This document shows, piece by piece, positions 7,633-15,155 of a DNA stretch of 36,580 nucleotides (its first letter is position 1; every line of letters starts with the position of its first letter). The stretch spans positions 1 to 36,580 of the forward strand of contig JAITIZ010000382.1 in assembly GCA_031279215.1 (NCBI GenBank). Direction: 5' to 3'. The stretch comes from Planctomycetaceae bacterium. GTDB taxonomy: Bacteria; Planctomycetota; Planctomycetia; Pirellulales; Thermoguttaceae. The position numbers and the translations under genes were made by a program. Below the pieces are notes generated by a model. That model saw only the letters and a list, made by a program, of their open reading frames with translations, was not told the origin of the DNA and did no database searches.

Positions 7633-7935
7633 GTGTTCATTGCAAAAATAGTCGGTTCAATTGTGTCAACACAAAAAGTCGAATCGATGATTGGTAAGAA
7701 ATTACTAGTTGTCGAACCTTATCGGCTTAATAACGACCATACCGAAATAAATTCAACCGGTAGAACTTTAGTTGCAGTCGATACTGTCGGCGCAGGTGAA
7801 AACGAGTTTGTTCTCGTCGTTCAGGGTTCAAGTGCGCGTCAAACTCCTGAAACTAAACCGCTTCCCGTTGATGCTACAATAATCGGCATACTCGACTCAA
7901 TAAATATCGATAAACGTAAAATCATTCCAACATAA
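7633..7935 (+). CDS. BMC-P (EutN/CcmL-type) shell vertex protein, copy 1
   Basis: 100 aa from a GTG start. The opening MFIAKIVGSIVSTQKVESMIGKKLLVVEP is the classic beginning of the EutN/CcmL family (Pfam EutN_CcmL), followed by VDTVGAGENEFVLVVQGSSAR and ending IIGILDSINID. These proteins form pentamers that cap the vertices of microcompartment shells. The length equals a single domain. It is the first gene of the BMC operon, and of the three BMC-P proteins here it looks closest to the family norm. No Shine-Dalgarno is obvious before the GTG, but the upstream codons of the frame add nothing family-like. Confidence 0.93.
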   Translation: MFIAKIVGSIVSTQKVESMIGKKLLVVEPYRLNNDHTEINSTGRTLVAVDTVGAGENEFVLVVQGSSARQTPETKPLPVDATIIGILDSINIDKRKIIPT

Positions 7936-8293: not shown

Positions 8294-9772
8294 GTGCAAG
8301 GATTGAGTGAACCTGTTATTCGCAATATAGTCGAAGAAGTAATCAACCGAATAAGTCAACGAGTTAAACATAACGTTGGTTGTCCGAGTGGTCAACCTCA
8401 TTTTGCATTTTCATCAACTACGCGTAGTTTTCGCGGCTATAATGGACTGTTTGCGGATCCTAACGACGCTATCGCCGCTGCTCGAATTGCATTCGAGGAA
8501 TTGCAACGAAAAACAATAGCTGAACGCGGCGGGATAATCGAAATAATCAGACGAATCGTAATTGAGCAAGCAACTGAACTCGGTACGCTCGAAATGAACG
8601 AAACTAAAATCGGACGTCTTGAACATAAAATCGATAAACTGATCGGATTAGGCAAAAATGCACCCGGTATAGAATTTCTTAAAAGCGATATATTCAGCGG
8701 CGATCACGGATTGACATTAATCGAATACTCGCCTTTTGGTGTTATTGGTGCTGTTTCACCGGTAACTCATTCTTTGCCGACTATTGCAAACAATGCGATC
8801 AATATGATTGCGTCTGGTAATACTGTTGTTTTCAATCCGCATCCAAGCGGTAAACGAATTGCAGCTGAAGGTGTCCGCCGATTCAATGCTGCTATTTTCA
8901 ACACGTATGGAATTGATAACTTGATCAATGTCGTTGTTGAACCAACGATGCAAACAGCTGACATTATTTTTCGTCATCCTGATATTGCTTTGATTATCGT
9001 TACCGGCGGTCCCGGAGTCGCTAAAGCTGCTATGTCTCAAACAAAACGTGCGATTGTTGCCGGACCCGGTAATCCGCCTGTCGTCGTAGATGAGACCGCA
9101 AATCTCGAACAAGCTGCAAGGAGTATTATCTATGCCGGCGCTTACGACAATAATTTATTGTGTCTTGCTGAAAAGGAAGTTTTTGTCGTAAATTCTGTTT
9201 TCGACGAGATGATGAAAGCAATGGAAAACGCTGGCGCGGTTCGATTAAACGCTGCCGAAGTCAACGCATTTACAGATAAAGCAATCGTTCAAGCCGGAGA
9301 AGGTAACGCTAAACACGACGCACCAAGCCGCGATTTACTCGGTAAAAATGCAAAAGTTCTCGCTGATAGTATCGGAAAAAATATTCCTGATAAAACAGAA
9401 TTGATATTCGGTGAAACAGATGAAACCAATCCTTTCGTTTCTGTCGAACAGATGATGCCTTTTCTGCCGTTTGTAAGAGTTCACGATGTAAACGAAGGAA
9501 TACGACTCGCAAAAAAATACGAACACGGATTTCGGCACACCGCTGTTATTCACTCAAACAATGTAAATACAATTACAAAAATGGCGAAAGAACTCGATAC
9601 GACTATTTTCGTTACAAATGGTCCAAGTACTGCCGGAAACGCCGGAGGAAATGCAGGTTTCTCGTCGTTTTCTATCGCTGGTCCAACTGGTGAAGGAATT
9701 ACAACGCCGCTCACTTTCACAAGATCAAGACGTTACGCTCACGTGGGAAGCCTACACATTTTAGGCAAATAA
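8294..9772 (+). CDS. CoA-acylating aldehyde dehydrogenase of the microcompartment (PduP/EutE-like)
   Basis: 492 aa from a GTG at 8294, chosen because AGGAG lies about 10 bases upstream. It oxidises an aldehyde (here probably lactaldehyde) to the acyl-CoA with NAD+. Residues 5-21 (SEPVIRNIVEEVINRIS) form an amphipathic helix followed by a loose linker, the form of an N-terminal encapsulation peptide. The catalytic domain follows: EYSPFGVIGAVSPVTHS near 144-160, TGGPGVAKAA near 237-246, and the catalytic Cys290 in NNLLCLAEKEVFVV, which is the CoA-acylating pattern. The C-terminal half contains the FTxxITxP-like loop near TGEGITTPLTFTR. It is the internal signature enzyme of the BMC locus. Confidence 0.93.
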   Translation: MQGLSEPVIRNIVEEVINRISQRVKHNVGCPSGQPHFAFSSTTRSFRGYNGLFADPNDAIAAARIAFEELQRKTIAERGGIIEIIRRIVIEQATELGTLEMNETKIGRLEHKIDKLIGLGKNAPGIEFLKSDIFSGDHGLTLIEYSPFGVIGAVSPVTHSLPTIANNAINMIASGNTVVFNPHPSGKRIAAEGVRRFNAAIFNTYGIDNLINVVVEPTMQTADIIFRHPDIALIIVTGGPGVAKAAMSQTKRAIVAGPGNPPVVVDETANLEQAARSIIYAGAYDNNLLCLAEKEVFVVNSVFDEMMKAMENAGAVRLNAAEVNAFTDKAIVQAGEGNAKHDAPSRDLLGKNAKVLADSIGKNIPDKTELIFGETDETNPFVSVEQMMPFLPFVRVHDVNEGIRLAKKYEHGFRHTAVIHSNNVNTITKMAKELDTTIFVTNGPSTAGNAGGNAGFSSFSIAGPTGEGITTPLTFTRSRRYAHVGSLHILGK

Positions 9773-9972: not shown

Positions 9973-10227
9973 ATGATCAAAGCAAAGGTAATTGGCACGG
10001 CAACGTCAACAATTAAGCATTGTTCACTCGACAGTTGGAAGCTGCTTGTTGTGAGTGACGGTTTCGACGTGTATATCGCTTTGGATAAATTTGGTGCCGG
10101 TGAGGGCGATAACGTAATTGTTACAAATGACGGAGCGTATGCGTCTGAAGTTGTCGGTGATCGTAACTCACCGGCGAGATGGTGCGTGATCGGATTAATT
10201 GACGATATTACAAATAACAAAAATTAA
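9973..10227 (+). CDS. BMC-P (EutN/CcmL-type) shell vertex protein, copy 2
   Basis: 84 aa with an ATG start. It begins MIKAKVIGTATSTIKHCSLDSWKLLVV, then ALDKFGAGEGDNVIVTNDGAYASEVVGDRNSPARWCVIGLIDD. The glycine-rich GAGEGD turn and the VIGLID ending are EutN/CcmL features. It is shorter than copy 1 because the mid-domain loop is reduced, and it carries an unusual Arg-Trp-Cys just before the last strand. The partial third 78-bp repeat ends right before the ATG, so no clear Shine-Dalgarno is seen. It is probably a vertex pentamer of the same shell. Confidence 0.9.
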   Translation: MIKAKVIGTATSTIKHCSLDSWKLLVVSDGFDVYIALDKFGAGEGDNVIVTNDGAYASEVVGDRNSPARWCVIGLIDDITNNKN

Positions 10228-10303: not shown

Positions 10304-11068
10304 GTGACAATCAGTAGTACAAACAATAGGATTACAGACAATATTAATATTACCGATATTGTTCAAAAAATTTTGGCAGACCTTAAAATCAAGCCGGAAT
10401 TTACCGAAATTTGTCATAAGACCGCTGATAATTCAATAACGGACAAAGATAATACGGTCAAAGATAATATTGAACAAACAAATACAATCGGACTTGATGA
10501 AACCGAATTGTTAATCGACAGCGGACATGTAATTTCACTCGGCGACATCAAAAGACAACTTGACAATAATCACAATCAAAAAATTTTGAAAATAGTTATT
10601 CCGTCTAAAAGTATTTTGACGCCTTCGGCAAAAGACGAAATAAAAAAACGCGGTCTCGGAATTATCGTACAAAAAACCGGTGAAAGTAATATTAGAAATA
10701 TCTCACTTTGGTTAGCAGAACACGGCAACGCGATAGTTTCGCCGCCGATATTGAAAAAATTACAAGCCGAATATTATTTGACACGGAATCAATTTATCAA
10801 CATTTCCGAAATCGTTGAAGAATCTGTAAGAATTACAGGACAAAAAAAACACGGCGTAATTTTGACACAACATCCTGCAACTGCCTTGAGAGTAATCGGA
10901 CTATGCGAATCGTTACGGGTGATCATTGCAATTGATCCCAAACAAGTGTACATCGACGCAAAAGAAATAAACGCAAACTTGATGATAGTATCACCAACAC
11001 GAATAAACGAATTAAATATCATCGAATCGATAAAACAATTTACAAAACAATTTGTAACTATTCAATAA
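10304..11068 (+). CDS. Unrecognised BMC-associated protein, possible cargo or adaptor
   Basis: 254 aa from a GTG start; I cannot assign a function. Residues about 13-29 (NINITDIVQKILADLKI) form an amphipathic helix like an encapsulation peptide, followed by a polar Asn/Asp/Thr-rich linker to about 62. Residues 73-123 contain SGHVISLGDIKRQL and SILTPSAKDEIKKRGLGIIV, phrasing like the N-terminal region of EutT and related BMC proteins (TPSAxDxLKxxGI). The C-terminal half (from about 131) alternates strands and helices (HGVILTQHPATALRVIGLC, NANLMIVSP), in the manner of an RpiB/LacAB-like alpha/beta fold; this is an inference. It sits between two BMC-P genes, so a role inside the organelle is likely. 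Confidence 0.8.
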   Translation: MTISSTNNRITDNINITDIVQKILADLKIKPEFTEICHKTADNSITDKDNTVKDNIEQTNTIGLDETELLIDSGHVISLGDIKRQLDNNHNQKILKIVIPSKSILTPSAKDEIKKRGLGIIVQKTGESNIRNISLWLAEHGNAIVSPPILKKLQAEYYLTRNQFINISEIVEESVRITGQKKHGVILTQHPATALRVIGLCESLRVIIAIDPKQVYIDAKEINANLMIVSPTRINELNIIESIKQFTKQFVTIQ

Positions 11069-11206: not shown

Positions 11207-11488
11207 ATGAGAATAGGAAAAGTAATTGGAACGTTGACGCTTTCTAAATCGCATGATTCACTTCGCGGCAGTAGTTGGCGGATAGTTGTACCTGTCAGTG
11301 AAAGTAATTTGTACGAAAATACAGAACCCGAGTCTGAAGAACTAATAGTTTACGACGATTTAGGTACCGGCAGCGGTGAATTGATTGCTTTTACGGAAGG
11401 TGCCGAAGCGGCGAAACCTTTTTTTCCATCGCTTAAACCTGTTGACGCTTACAACGCCGCAATATTAGACAAAATAGATTTACAATAA
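11207..11488 (+). CDS. BMC-P (EutN/CcmL-type) shell vertex protein, copy 3
   Basis: 93 aa with GGAG about 10 bases before the ATG at 11207. It starts MRIGKVIGTLTLSKSHDSLRGSSWRIVVPVSE and continues VYDDLGTGSGELIAFTEGAEAAKPFFPSLKPVDAYNAAILDKIDL. The GTGSGE turn and the AAILDKIDL end match the family. The region just after the first strands carries an acidic insert (ENTEPESEE). Three diverged BMC-P paralogues in one operon are characteristic of the planctomycete/verrucomicrobial BMC type. The upstream gap (11069-11206) has AT-rich micro-repeats of tttttttgtgaattt and cgtattt. Confidence 0.92.
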   Translation: MRIGKVIGTLTLSKSHDSLRGSSWRIVVPVSESNLYENTEPESEELIVYDDLGTGSGELIAFTEGAEAAKPFFPSLKPVDAYNAAILDKIDLQ

Positions 11489-11708: not shown

Positions 11709-12680
11709 ATGCTTAACATTCATCAAGTTAAAGAGGAGATTTGCGATATTGGTCGTCGTATTTACAATCGCGGATTTGCGGCGGCAAATGACGGCAACAT
11801 ATCTTATCGAATAGACGAGAACCGTGTCGTTTGTACGCCGACTGGTATTAGTAAAGGTTTTATGAAACCCGAAGACCTTTGTATCGTTGACATGGAAGGT
11901 AATCAAATTTCAGGTACAAAAAAACGTACAAGTGAAATATTACTTCATTTGACAATAATGAAATCACGTCCTGAAGTCAAATCGGTTGTTCATTGTCATC
12001 CGCCTCATGCAACAGCGTTTGGGATAGCGCGAGAGGCGATACCGCAATGTCTAATGCCCGAAGTTGACATTAACATGGGTGATGTTCCGATAGCAAAATA
12101 CGCATTGCCGGGCGGTCAAGGATTTGCTGATGTCGTAATGCCGTATATTATGAAAAGTGATATTATTGTTCAAGCTAATCATGGTACGGTTAGTGTTGGT
12201 CCAACTATCGAGCGGGCGTATTGGCTGGCAGAAATGTTAGACGCTTATTGCAGAATTTGTTTAATTGCACGTGATCTCGGTAAAGTTGAATATTTCACAC
12301 GGGATGAAGCGGAAGATTTATTACAATTAAAACAAAAATGGGGATTCAAAGACCCGCGAGCTGAATTAGAAAATTGCGAACTCTGTGCAAACGATATTTT
12401 TCGTGAAAGTTGGAAAGAAACAGGCGTCGGACACAGAGCTTTTCAACCGCCGGCATTTAAACGCAAAGATGATATTCTTGATCAAAAATCTACAAATCCG
12501 AATTGCAAATGCGGAGGCAGCAGATGTAAGATGAACTCACAAAATTCACAAAATTCACAAGGCTCACAAGGCTCACAAAATCCTGCGAACATTACTGATT
12601 CAAATGTACCGGCAAGCGATGAATGTGAGTTAATAATAAAAACAATAACAGACCGTGTAATTAAAGCATTGGCAGGTTGA
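11709..12680 (+). CDS. Class II (FucA/RhaD-like) aldolase with C-terminal encapsulation peptide
   Basis: 323 aa, ATG preceded by AAGGA about 10 bases upstream. The class II aldolase/adducin domain occupies residues 1 to about 220: DGNISYR near 28, the catalytic Glu76, zinc ligands His95 and His97 in HCHPPH, and His158 in QANHGT. Relatives cleave L-fuculose or L-rhamnulose 1-phosphate to lactaldehyde and dihydroxyacetone phosphate. The usual enzyme is about 215-260 aa, so this one has a long tail: CELC at 223-226, CKCGGSRC at 266-273, a Ser-Gln-rich linker (275-292), and a final amphipathic helix (ELIIKTITDRVIKALAG) that looks like an encapsulation peptide. It would feed the aldehyde dehydrogenase inside the compartment. 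Confidence 0.92.
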   Translation: MLNIHQVKEEICDIGRRIYNRGFAAANDGNISYRIDENRVVCTPTGISKGFMKPEDLCIVDMEGNQISGTKKRTSEILLHLTIMKSRPEVKSVVHCHPPHATAFGIAREAIPQCLMPEVDINMGDVPIAKYALPGGQGFADVVMPYIMKSDIIVQANHGTVSVGPTIERAYWLAEMLDAYCRICLIARDLGKVEYFTRDEAEDLLQLKQKWGFKDPRAELENCELCANDIFRESWKETGVGHRAFQPPAFKRKDDILDQKSTNPNCKCGGSRCKMNSQNSQNSQGSQGSQNPANITDSNVPASDECELIIKTITDRVIKALAG

Positions 12681-12895: not shown

Positions 12896-13681
12896 ATGCA
12901 AGTTGACATAATTGATCCGGTTTTACGTTCTTATCCCAAGCTGGAGTATCCGCGTTATAAATTTGGGGAGCGGGTAGCGTTTTTTATTCCGTGTTTTATT
13001 GAGCAGTTTTATCCGTCGGTAAAGCGTGCGATGTGTCGTTTATTTGATGCTGAGGGTATATCGTTTGAGATTCCATCTGGGCAGACGTGTTGCGGACAAC
13101 CGGCGTTAAACAGCGGATATTGGAAGGAAGCTCGTAAAGTCATGGAGTATTTCACTAAAATATTTGGAGTTTATGACTGGATTATTACGCCTTCGACTTC
13201 GTGTGCTGCTATGTGTAGAGTTTTTTTTGGATATTTATCGCCGAACTCGATTCATGCTGAAGTTGGCAAACGTGTTTTTGATGTAAGTGAATTTTTTGTC
13301 AATTTATTTGGGAAGATTGATTTCAATGCGAGTTATAGCAAGCGGGTTGCGCTTCATATTGGTTGTCATGGACGCCGTGAGTTAGGGATAGTAGAGCAAC
13401 CGTTATTGTTATTGAATAATATTAAAAATTTGATTTATACTCCGTTACCGTTTATGGAGGAGTGTTGTGGTTTTGGCGGAACGTTTAGTGTAAAAACGCC
13501 CGGAACTTCGATTGCGATAGGGCAACGAAAAATATCGAACATTGCAAGCTCTGGATGTGAAGTCGTAGCGACGTCGGATTTAAGTTGTGCAATGCACTTT
13601 GGGGGGATGATGCAAAGAGACAACAAGTTAAAAAACATTCCGATAAAACACATAATAGAATTACTCTCACCAGAAGAATAG
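12896..13681 (+). CDS. LutA/GlcF-type cysteine-rich (CCG domain) oxidoreductase subunit
   Basis: 261 aa from the ATG at 12896; the nearby ATG at 12871 is out of frame. Two cysteine-rich CCG domains are complete: PCFIEQFYP with CCG at 65-67 and Cys103 in TPSTSC, then HIGCHGRR with Cys157, CCG at 190-192 and Cys231 in DLSCAMHFGG. This is the pattern of LutA (YkgE), the heterodisulfide-reductase-like subunit of L-lactate oxidation. LutB and LutC partners are absent here. PVC-type BMC loci are known to contain such a gene, so a role in oxidising lactate derived from lactaldehyde is plausible. The terminator before it suggests its own promoter or regulated read-through. Confidence 0.88.
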   Translation: MQVDIIDPVLRSYPKLEYPRYKFGERVAFFIPCFIEQFYPSVKRAMCRLFDAEGISFEIPSGQTCCGQPALNSGYWKEARKVMEYFTKIFGVYDWIITPSTSCAAMCRVFFGYLSPNSIHAEVGKRVFDVSEFFVNLFGKIDFNASYSKRVALHIGCHGRRELGIVEQPLLLLNNIKNLIYTPLPFMEECCGFGGTFSVKTPGTSIAIGQRKISNIASSGCEVVATSDLSCAMHFGGMMQRDNKLKNIPIKHIIELLSPEE

Positions 13682-13693
13682 CGGCTAGTGCTT

Positions 13694-13745
13694 AGTGGTC
13701 AGTGGTCAGTGGTTAGTGGTCAGTTCGCATGCGGAGATTATCATC
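13694..13745. repeat. Heptad tandem repeat plus shared block, copy A
   Basis: Four tandem units of agtggtY (13694-13721) are followed by agttcgcatgcggagatta. The same arrangement with two heptads recurs at about 15172-15212. Each copy begins about 15 bases after the stop codon of the gene before it. Confidence 0.85.
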
Positions 13746-14053
13746 GGCTATAATTTCGAATCACCAATCACCTACGCTATTTTGTAGAGAGACACAATAC
13801 ACCCCGTGTTTCTGTGTTATGTGATAAACTTTCTATCATCGGAATTTCCGAAGATGCACAATACACCTTGTGTTTCTGTGTTATGTGATAAACGTAATAT
13901 TTCGGTGAAAAATTTCTTTCAGAAGGTTTCAAATTCTTTTTTTACAAACCTTATTACCTTATTAAAAAATCGTTTTTCAATAATAAGGTAACAAGGTTTT
14001 GTTTTTTTGTGATTTTTAAACACGAAAAGCACGAAAAGGAGTTAACTATCAAG
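13746..14053. other. Intergenic region with hairpin-bearing duplicate
   Basis: No gene is seen. Around 13785-13895 the phrase acaatacaccYYgtgtttctgtgttatgtgataaac occurs twice in tandem and is related to the hairpins between the aldehyde dehydrogenase and the second BMC-P. From about 14015 the words aaacacgaaaagcacgaaaagga appear and recur near 18570. Confidence 0.5.
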
Positions 14054-14172
14054 AAGTCCCGCTAGGGACGACACTTTATTAACCGTATGCTTTAGCTTAC
14101 GGATCAACGCAATAAACATATCCAAGTCCCGCAGGGACGACACTTTATTAACCGTATGCTTTAGCTTACGGA
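14054..14172. repeat. Two direct copies of a ~50-bp double-hairpin repeat
   Basis: Copies at 14054-14103 and 14124-14172 are identical except for one inserted base. Each contains two stem-loops: gtcccgc-agggac, and ccgtatgc-ttta-gcttacgg (one bulge pair). This is the form of a REP-like intergenic palindrome family. The copies lie upstream of the SDR gene. Confidence 0.88.
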
Positions 14173-14378
14173 AGGAGCTTTTACTACACATATTGTTTTT
14201 CTTTTTAAGTTAATTACAATTTGCGGCTTGTTTGAAACTCGTGCAAGTTGTTTCTTGACTCTTTTGTTGAGCTTGCACAAGATTAGTTTTTGATAAATTG
14301 ACACATAAATTGCCAATAGTCAAAATTAAAAAAATAAATTTAAAGGAAAATTCAGAAATTACAAAAAACAAAAAAATA

Positions 14379-15155
14379 ATGGAATTCAAAGACAAAGTAG
14401 CATTAGTAACCGGCGCAACCGGTTCAATCGGTAAAGAAATAGCTAAACGTATTGTCGCCGAAGGCGGCAAAGCCTTCATTACAGATATCGATCAATCAAA
14501 AATCGATGCCGTATCAGAAGAAATAGGCTCAAACTGCAGCGGATTAGCAGCAGATATAACTAAATTAGATGCCGTTACTTCAGTTGTCGAAGCATGCCGG
14601 AAAAAATTCGGTAAAAATATTAACGTACTAGTTAATGTCGCAGGTACGTCCGGTAAAGGTAATAAAATCGAAGATGTCGATGAAAAAGAATGGGATTTTA
14701 TCTATGCCGTCAATGTTAAAGGTACGTTCTTTTTTATCAAACGCATAATGCCGATAATGAAAGAACAAGGTAACGGTTCAATCGTAAATTTTTCAAGCAA
14801 GTCCGGAAAAACAGGCTCGGCATTGATGAGTGCATATAGCTCGGCAAAAGGCGCAATCATTACACTGACACAAGCCCTAGCTTACGAAGTTGCAAAATTG
14901 AATATTCGTGTAAACTGCGTTTGCCCAGGTATAACCGAATCAACCGGCGTATGGACACACGTTTCTGCCGACTATGTCAATAACATGAAAATGCCTCACG
15001 ATGAAATCGTAAAAACATTCACCGCAAAAGTTCCAATGGGACGCTTAGCACATATTGAAGATGTCGTCAATGTAGCTTGCTTCTTAGCAAGCGATAGATC
15101 CGCATACATGACCGGTCAAGCAATAAACATAACAGGAGGCCGCGAAATGCACTGA
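14379..15155 (+). CDS. Short-chain dehydrogenase/reductase (SDR)
   Basis: 258 aa from the ATG at 14379 (MEFKDKVALVTG); the frame is open 81 bases further upstream, but that extension is Lys/Asn-rich and not SDR-like. The classical SDR layout is complete: nucleotide-binding TGATGSIG (11-18), NVAG near 86-89, catalytic Ser140, Tyr153 and Lys157 (YSSAK), RVNCVCPG, and the C-terminal SDRSAYMTGQAINITGG. It reduces or oxidises a small alcohol, ketone or sugar acid with NAD(P); the substrate is unknown. Its position 700 bases after the BMC locus invites a link to fucose or rhamnose acid metabolism, but the repeats between them argue against one transcript. Confidence 0.88.
   Translation: MEFKDKVALVTGATGSIGKEIAKRIVAEGGKAFITDIDQSKIDAVSEEIGSNCSGLAADITKLDAVTSVVEACRKKFGKNINVLVNVAGTSGKGNKIEDVDEKEWDFIYAVNVKGTFFFIKRIMPIMKEQGNGSIVNFSSKSGKTGSALMSAYSSAKGAIITLTQALAYEVAKLNIRVNCVCPGITESTGVWTHVSADYVNNMKMPHDEIVKTFTAKVPMGRLAHIEDVVNVACFLASDRSAYMTGQAINITGGREMH

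Follow-up and report, generated by a model that had tools for sequence, protein, structure and literature searches.

Introduction

Ties between the enzyme cargo and the shell are known for only a few bacterial microcompartments (BMCs), and each linker has been treated as a separate invention. One described case for comparison with the gene studied here is EutQ. According to PMC12487888, H1/H2 of EutQ go with the shell and H3/H4 with the cargo. The same source reports that shell and cargo come apart when residues 9-41 are removed, with EutQ staying with the cargo, and that EutQ lacking residues 62-99 stays with the shell. The C-terminal part of EutQ is described there as dimerising and as dispensable for assembly. 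Removal of the first 100 residues of EutQ was reported to abolish the pull-down of EutM (PMC4827028). A second protein, PduM, is described as joining shell and core (PMC9132943, PMC12108088); PMC12108088 states that it requires its N-terminal signal and that it has no sequence relatives outside Pdu. In C. difficile, Table 1 of PMC3483176 lists the gene of an unnamed protein (CD1921) just upstream of eutN, together with an EutQ of about 157 aa.

Here we describe a protein of Planctomycetota microcompartment loci that carries a module matching parts of EutQ, PduM, EutT and the hypothetical family TIGR02536, placed in front of a domain that looks like a sugar isomerase whose active site has been lost. 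We propose that it is probably an assembly linker between shell and cargo.

Genomic context and distribution

The gene lies in the window, by which we mean the whole stretch of 36,580 nucleotides of a Planctomycetaceae bacterium that was analysed. The open reading frame was confirmed, with a GTG start and 254 open codons (254 aa), and so was its position between two shell genes as given in the original prediction (Table 1). The gene order in the window is BMC-P, CoA-acylating aldehyde dehydrogenase (AldDH), BMC-P, the gene, BMC-P and class II aldolase. With BMC-P genes, AldDH and a class II aldolase present, the locus is a PVM-type (fucose/rhamnose) microcompartment locus. Downstream of the aldolase, at 12896-15155, we found a lone LdhH/GlpC-like CCG-domain protein (from 12896) followed by an SDR (from 14298). 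PVM loci have been reported to encode a lactate/malate dehydrogenase, for which these two may be stand-ins.

Table 1 Features of the gene and of its locus in the window.
Feature	Positions	Strand	Remarks
BMC-P shell pentamer 1 (EutN_CcmL)	7633-7935	+	
CoA-acylating aldehyde dehydrogenase (AldDH)	8294-9772	+	encapsulation-like helix at N-terminus
BMC-P shell pentamer 2	9973-10227	+	PF03319, E 5e-17
The gene (candidate encapsulation helix, linker, putative docking module, degenerate RpiB/LacAB-fold domain)	10304-11068	+	
Encapsulation-peptide-like amphipathic helix, aa 13-30	10340-10393	+	AF2 helix at aa 16-26; pattern in 40/41 members
Variable low-confidence linker, aa 31-65	10394-10498	+	pLDDT <50 at aa 32-53
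Putative docking module, aa 66-124	10499-10675	+	common to EutT/EutQ N-termini and PduM/TIGR02536 C-termini
Predicted RpiB/LacAB-fold domain, aa 134-252	10703-11059	+	without SDHGG, GxGxG, EHN and GRH motifs
BMC-P shell pentamer 3	11207-11488	+	E 1e-17
Class II aldolase, PVM signature enzyme	11709-12680	+	locus type as described in PMC4207490

BMC-H and PduL families were not detected among the window ORFs scanned; the genome itself has four BMC-H-type matches, located on contigs C343 and C441. A second copy of the gene, 38% identical, was found on contig C343 inside a second PVM locus (L017, G000:C343:9000-28592). This locus contains PduL, acetate kinase, two BMC-H genes, BMC-P1, AldDH, BMC-P2 and the gene copy. 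Neither BMC-P3 nor the aldolase was found on that stretch, whereas the window locus has both but lacks BMC-H and PduL. The gene is under purifying selection, with dN/dS of 0.21-0.28 in six of seven ortholog pairs; dS was saturated in the seventh.

We searched 40 genomes, including the genome of the window, and found a family match in 23. A BMC-P gene adjoins the gene in 19 of 20 retrieved loci and the gene is flanked by BMC-P left and right in 11 (across a gap of some 1.2 kb in L034), where one of the 20 (L031) ends at the contig end and the gene was located by position in three (L018, L020 and L023). A scan of one genome per species across 84,980 species, using patterns from four Pirellulales-type sequences, identified 34 loci. 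Every title among them was Planctomycetota, and they include that of an isolate, Blastopirellula marina DSM 3645 (L072). The original prediction implied that orthologues would be confined to BMC loci, and this is where the scan found them: all 34 loci have at least one BMC-P gene next to the gene. Because an in-frame stop splits the gene in L070, this sequence was excluded from analyses A4, A5 and A7; the partial sequence L073 was included in A4 and A6 and excluded from A5 and A7.

The module also co-occurs with BMC-P at the level of whole genomes. In a search of 392 Planctomycetota genomes, BMC-P was present in 86 of the 87 genomes with a module match, among the matches listed; the single exception there (G252) is a genome that is 67% complete. 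Another 38 genomes of the 392 had BMC-P and no module match among the matches listed. Within the class of the window, and leaving its own genome uncounted, the family was present in 37 of 38 BMC-P genomes among the matches listed. One genome, G414, is 98% complete and has a PVM locus (L126) in which BMC-P2 is followed directly by BMC-P3, the gene being naturally absent. This is a point against reading the protein as a linker.

An N-terminal helix and a module matching PduM, EutT and EutQ

To describe the build of the protein, we begin with its N-terminus, which contains ITDIVQKILADL, a candidate encapsulation peptide. It fits a single helix pattern that occurs within the first 40 aa of 40 of the 41 family members and in 3.1% of shuffled N-termini; the pattern was drawn from these same family sequences, so the 40/41 count and its comparison with 3.1% are descriptive. 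The AldDH of the window fits the pattern as well. Consistent with the original prediction of an encapsulation peptide, the AF2 model has a helix at this place (Table 1). The model of the window protein has a mean pLDDT of 77.5, with low values in the linker and block means of 88-96 for aa 71-120 and 87-96 for aa 181-250. The model of a relative (L041) reached 89.5.

The second element highlighted in the original prediction, the motif TPSAKDEIKKRGL ('TPSAKDE'), lies inside a conserved module of about 50 aa, and three of the residues there (T106, P107 and D111) are invariant in 34 aligned members. We built a profile from 26 module sequences of non-PVM Planctomycetota proteins and searched 606 E. 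coli ORFs with it. The three top-ranked ORFs were PduM (6.9e-7), EutT (1.8e-6) and EutQ (6.3e-5), and the next ORF followed at 0.059. The profile holds no E. coli sequence, and E-values are given for a database of 4,900 proteins. With the same profile, no sequence in a decoy set of 3,636 reversed or shuffled ORFs scored better than 0.28. The profile found 40 of the 41 PVM proteins at 1e-3 or better. In the window it matched the gene at a modest 5.2e-4, the only credible match among 238 ORFs. A set of 25 module sequences, including 4 from PVM proteins, was also run against 18,950 models of NCBIfam. TIGR02536 was matched by 17 sequences, PduM models by 13 and 11, EutQ by 7 and EutT by 5, and six other models were matched once each. 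The individual E-values are modest (best 5e-5), and it is the agreement among them that counts. Taken together, the ranking in E. coli, the decoys with the recovery of the PVM proteins, and the agreement among NCBIfam models argue strongly that the module is homologous to those of PduM, EutT, EutQ and TIGR02536. The EutT-like N-terminal phrase noted in the original prediction was thereby confirmed, in a wider form that takes in EutQ, PduM and TIGR02536.

A profile match within the genome of the window covered 10523-10678 with an E-value of 1e-11, obtained with a profile that itself includes the window sequence. When the profile was made of PVM modules only (A6), the E. coli search placed a PduL ORF first (0.059) and EutT second (0.39), with PduM in 38th place and EutQ not listed. 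Single-sequence comparison with hhalign was weak, with probabilities of 31% for PduM, 27% for EutT and 3% for EutQ. Both results count against the homology, which emerged once the broader non-PVM profile was used. Searches of the module against the PDB (A6, A8) found no credible match. Since E2 peripheral-subunit-binding domains appeared at E 0.08-0.6 in the A8 search, a circularly permuted version was tried; it gave 0.15 for one of these domains and 0.36 for another, and this candidate was rejected.

Additional Planctomycetota carriers of the module comprise triosephosphate isomerase (TIM) fusions, ACT fusions and small proteins (with Pfam-level names taken from NCBIfam where scanned). Module-TIM fusions were identified in L115 and L116 (NCBIfam) and in L119 (by eye), the last of which adjoins BMC-P and an encapsulated-type RpiB. 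The module occurs with an ACT domain (PRK00194-like; by eye in L117) in L107-L110, L117 and L118, several of them beside BMC genes, and it is possible that these fusions act as regulators in or on microcompartments. Small proteins consisting of the module only (open frames of 98-142 aa), some with a cysteine-rich stretch, are encoded directly 3' of BMC-T-like genes in L111-L114 and L123.

Comparison with described carriers of the module

The match on E. coli EutQ covers approximately residues 2-48 and thus spans the shell-associating residues 9-41. EutQ, described in PMC12487888 as linking shell and cargo, is a close likeness in several respects: it has the same module of about 45 aa, helices binding encapsulation peptides, and a C-terminal domain that is of enzyme type and dimerises. 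The order of the parts differs, since the module comes first in EutQ and the encapsulation helix comes first in the PVM protein. The bodies differ as well: EutQ has a cupin, whereas the PVM protein has a predicted RpiB fold, and Pfam and NCBIfam scans of the window protein found no cupin match. EutM and EutL are known as shell partners of EutQ, whereas none is known for the PVM module, which also counts against the linker reading.

PduM has an N-terminal encapsulation helix and the module at its C-terminus (approximately residues 121-162 in E. coli). Both features are present in the window protein, and pduM, like the PVM gene, lies directly upstream of a BMC-P gene. In PduM, unlike in the PVM protein, nothing follows the module, the middle part is of another kind and an RpiB domain is absent. 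Full-length PduM models gave no match for the window protein; its relatives match the C-terminal part, below the cut-off where shown. In EutT the same module, at about residues 2-45, is followed by an adenosyltransferase domain, unlike in the PVM protein. No adenosyltransferase family was found in Pfam and NCBIfam scans of the window protein, the rest of which is predicted to be the RpiB fold. TIGR02536 proteins carry the module at the C-terminus (162-206 of 207), and the C. difficile CD1921 protein may be the local TIGR02536 carrier.

Because the module also occurs on plain enzymes (EutT, the TIM fusions), its role could be general targeting, and this is a further point against a linker role. 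The module would then be a second targeting element on the cargo side and no shell dock, and the PVM protein would be packed inside while linking nothing. For the encapsulation of such a protein, its N-terminal helix could be sufficient. However, the module region of EutQ (9-41) was reported to be needed for shell association, its loss leaving EutQ with the cargo (PMC12487888). We therefore regard a targeting element as an unlikely account of the module, and a dock on the shell as the preferred reading.

The RpiB-like domain and loss of the isomerase motifs

To characterize the C-terminal half of the protein, structure prediction was followed by fold searches. Foldseek with the window model returned RpiBs as the best PDB matches (6mu0, E 4.2e-5; target TM-score up to 0.79). 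The L041 model aligned to RpiB with Z 18.7 and an rmsd of 1.9 over 121 residues; Z ranged from 18.7 to 13.0 for RpiB relatives and was at most 9.1 for any other fold listed. Family profiles searched against the PDB likewise ranked RpiB or LacB first (A1, 4.8e-4; A5, 1.7e-5). With a limit of E 5, PF02502 was matched by 9 out of 21 members; with the limit at E 1, it was matched by 21 out of 30, the best value being 1.5e-8. The window protein alone had no match in the Pfam scan, PF02502 included. On the predicted models, the C-terminal domain is a full RpiB/LacAB fold, as the original prediction had suggested for this alpha/beta half.

The profile search of the 392 Planctomycetota genomes, followed by inspection of 40 regions, also yielded 14 proteins whose RpiB domain looks intact and follows an N-terminal extension; 13 of the 14 have the module. 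Loci with a DeoC aldolase and a nucleoside phosphorylase correspond to the SPU type of PMC8217296. We call all 14 proteins SPU-type by their build, and a DeoC-type locus is meant only where neighbours were checked: there, a DeoC aldolase is near the gene in L134, L135 and L120 and a nucleoside phosphorylase in L134, L120 and L133. BMC-P genes lie beside the SPU-type gene in 8 of the 14 cases; the other six show no BMC-P link in the stretch inspected, but their genomes contain BMC-P.

We compared 11 motif sites (SDH, C/D-GxGxG, EHN, GRH..RV), which we take to be the catalytic and phosphate-site residues of RpiB. The number retained is two or fewer in each of the 41 PVM proteins (mean 0.4) and zero in the window protein, versus at least 10 in the 14 SPU-type proteins and 10-11 in three cellular RpiBs. 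The D of SDH, the Cys66-equivalent, the third G of GxGxG, the H and N of EHN and the H of GRH are kept in none of the PVM proteins. Of the 41, one keeps the H of SDH, two keep each of the other two G, one keeps the R of GRH and 12 keep the R of RV. At the Cys66-equivalent, PVM proteins have T, S or A (33, 4 and 4 of 41) and all 14 SPU-type proteins have D. These residues suggest that the SPU-type RpiBs look catalytic, while the PVM protein looks like a sugar isomerase that has lost its active site, that is, a pseudoenzyme. It would then be the degenerate counterpart of the encapsulated isomerase.

The original prediction had preferred a sugar-phosphate isomerase. That identity was rejected on the residue table, and what could still be argued is an active isomerase with a re-invented active site, given the common RpiB fold and the catalytic look of the SPU-type counterparts. 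The motif sites, however, are lost across the whole PVM family, and the genome of the window encodes four PF02502 proteins at other sites, able to carry out the housekeeping reaction. An active isomerase is very improbable on this evidence. Of the original prediction, the EutT-like N-terminus and the RpiB/LacAB fold were thus borne out by the profile and fold searches and the isomerase function was not; the structural adaptor that it named as another option has more support than the isomerase.

The domain might instead bind a sugar phosphate or a nucleotide and tune the pathway inside the compartment as a non-catalytic sensor. The fold is retained across the whole domain, and three positions remain conserved in the PVM proteins (N of ANR in 33/41, R of GVRA in 38/41 and N of NAN in 40/41). 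From the alignment, however, these positions look structural, and the glycine loop, the EHN motif and the GRH motif are lost. A sensor or ligand binder seems quite improbable to us, and the reading as a structural part is preferred.

The encapsulated-type RpiB of DeoC-type (SPU) BMCs has the same parts as the PVM protein and, in 8 of the 14 loci, occupies the same slot beside BMC-P. This suggested that the two are of common descent. A profile of the SPU proteins over module and domain was collinear with many PVM members (best 4.4e-11); the window protein reached just 0.19. The modest scores of the window protein, with this profile, with the non-PVM module profile and in the Pfam scan, count against the linker reading. 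In the tree of RpiB domains, the PVM group was not placed with the SPU proteins and its branch is 4.46 changes per column long. A PVM+SPU clade was 0.39 log units worse and was not rejected (p-AU 0.325). The tree neither supports nor rejects descent of the PVM proteins from SPU proteins.

Discussion

We consider it probable that the PVM protein links shell and cargo in the assembly of its microcompartment, with a dead isomerase for a body. The N-terminal amphipathic helix would join the enzyme core, where AldDH has the same kind of helix, and a flexible linker would separate it from the 'TPxARD' module of about 50 aa, which would dock on the shell. Core binding by the helix and shell docking by the module are proposed by analogy with the described linkers. 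By the same kind of analogy, the RpiB-fold body would lack catalysis and oligomerise, keeping copies of the protein together.

More broadly, the balance of the evidence leans slightly towards a single shell-docking module of about 50 aa that is used across many kinds of catabolic BMC and has been shuffled onto unrelated bodies. These would be a cupin (EutQ), an adenosyltransferase (EutT), PduM, TIGR02536, RpiB, TIM and ACT domains, and stand-alone small proteins. The carrier at PVM loci would be a pseudoenzyme derived from an encapsulated isomerase, with no task left but to keep core and shell joined. In the literature searched, we found no paper joining PduM, EutQ, EutT and the RpiB-like PVM protein; the supplementary tables of BMC catalogues, which may already record PF02502 at PVM loci, and most subscription papers lie outside this scope.

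If this is true, PduM and EutQ would express one and the same principle of assembly. Should all of these proteins dock on the shell through the shared module, linkers would be predictable from sequence in many loci, and engineering would gain a portable tag, some 50 residues long, for docking on shells. The PVM protein would then clearly exemplify an encapsulated enzyme that has turned into a structural part.
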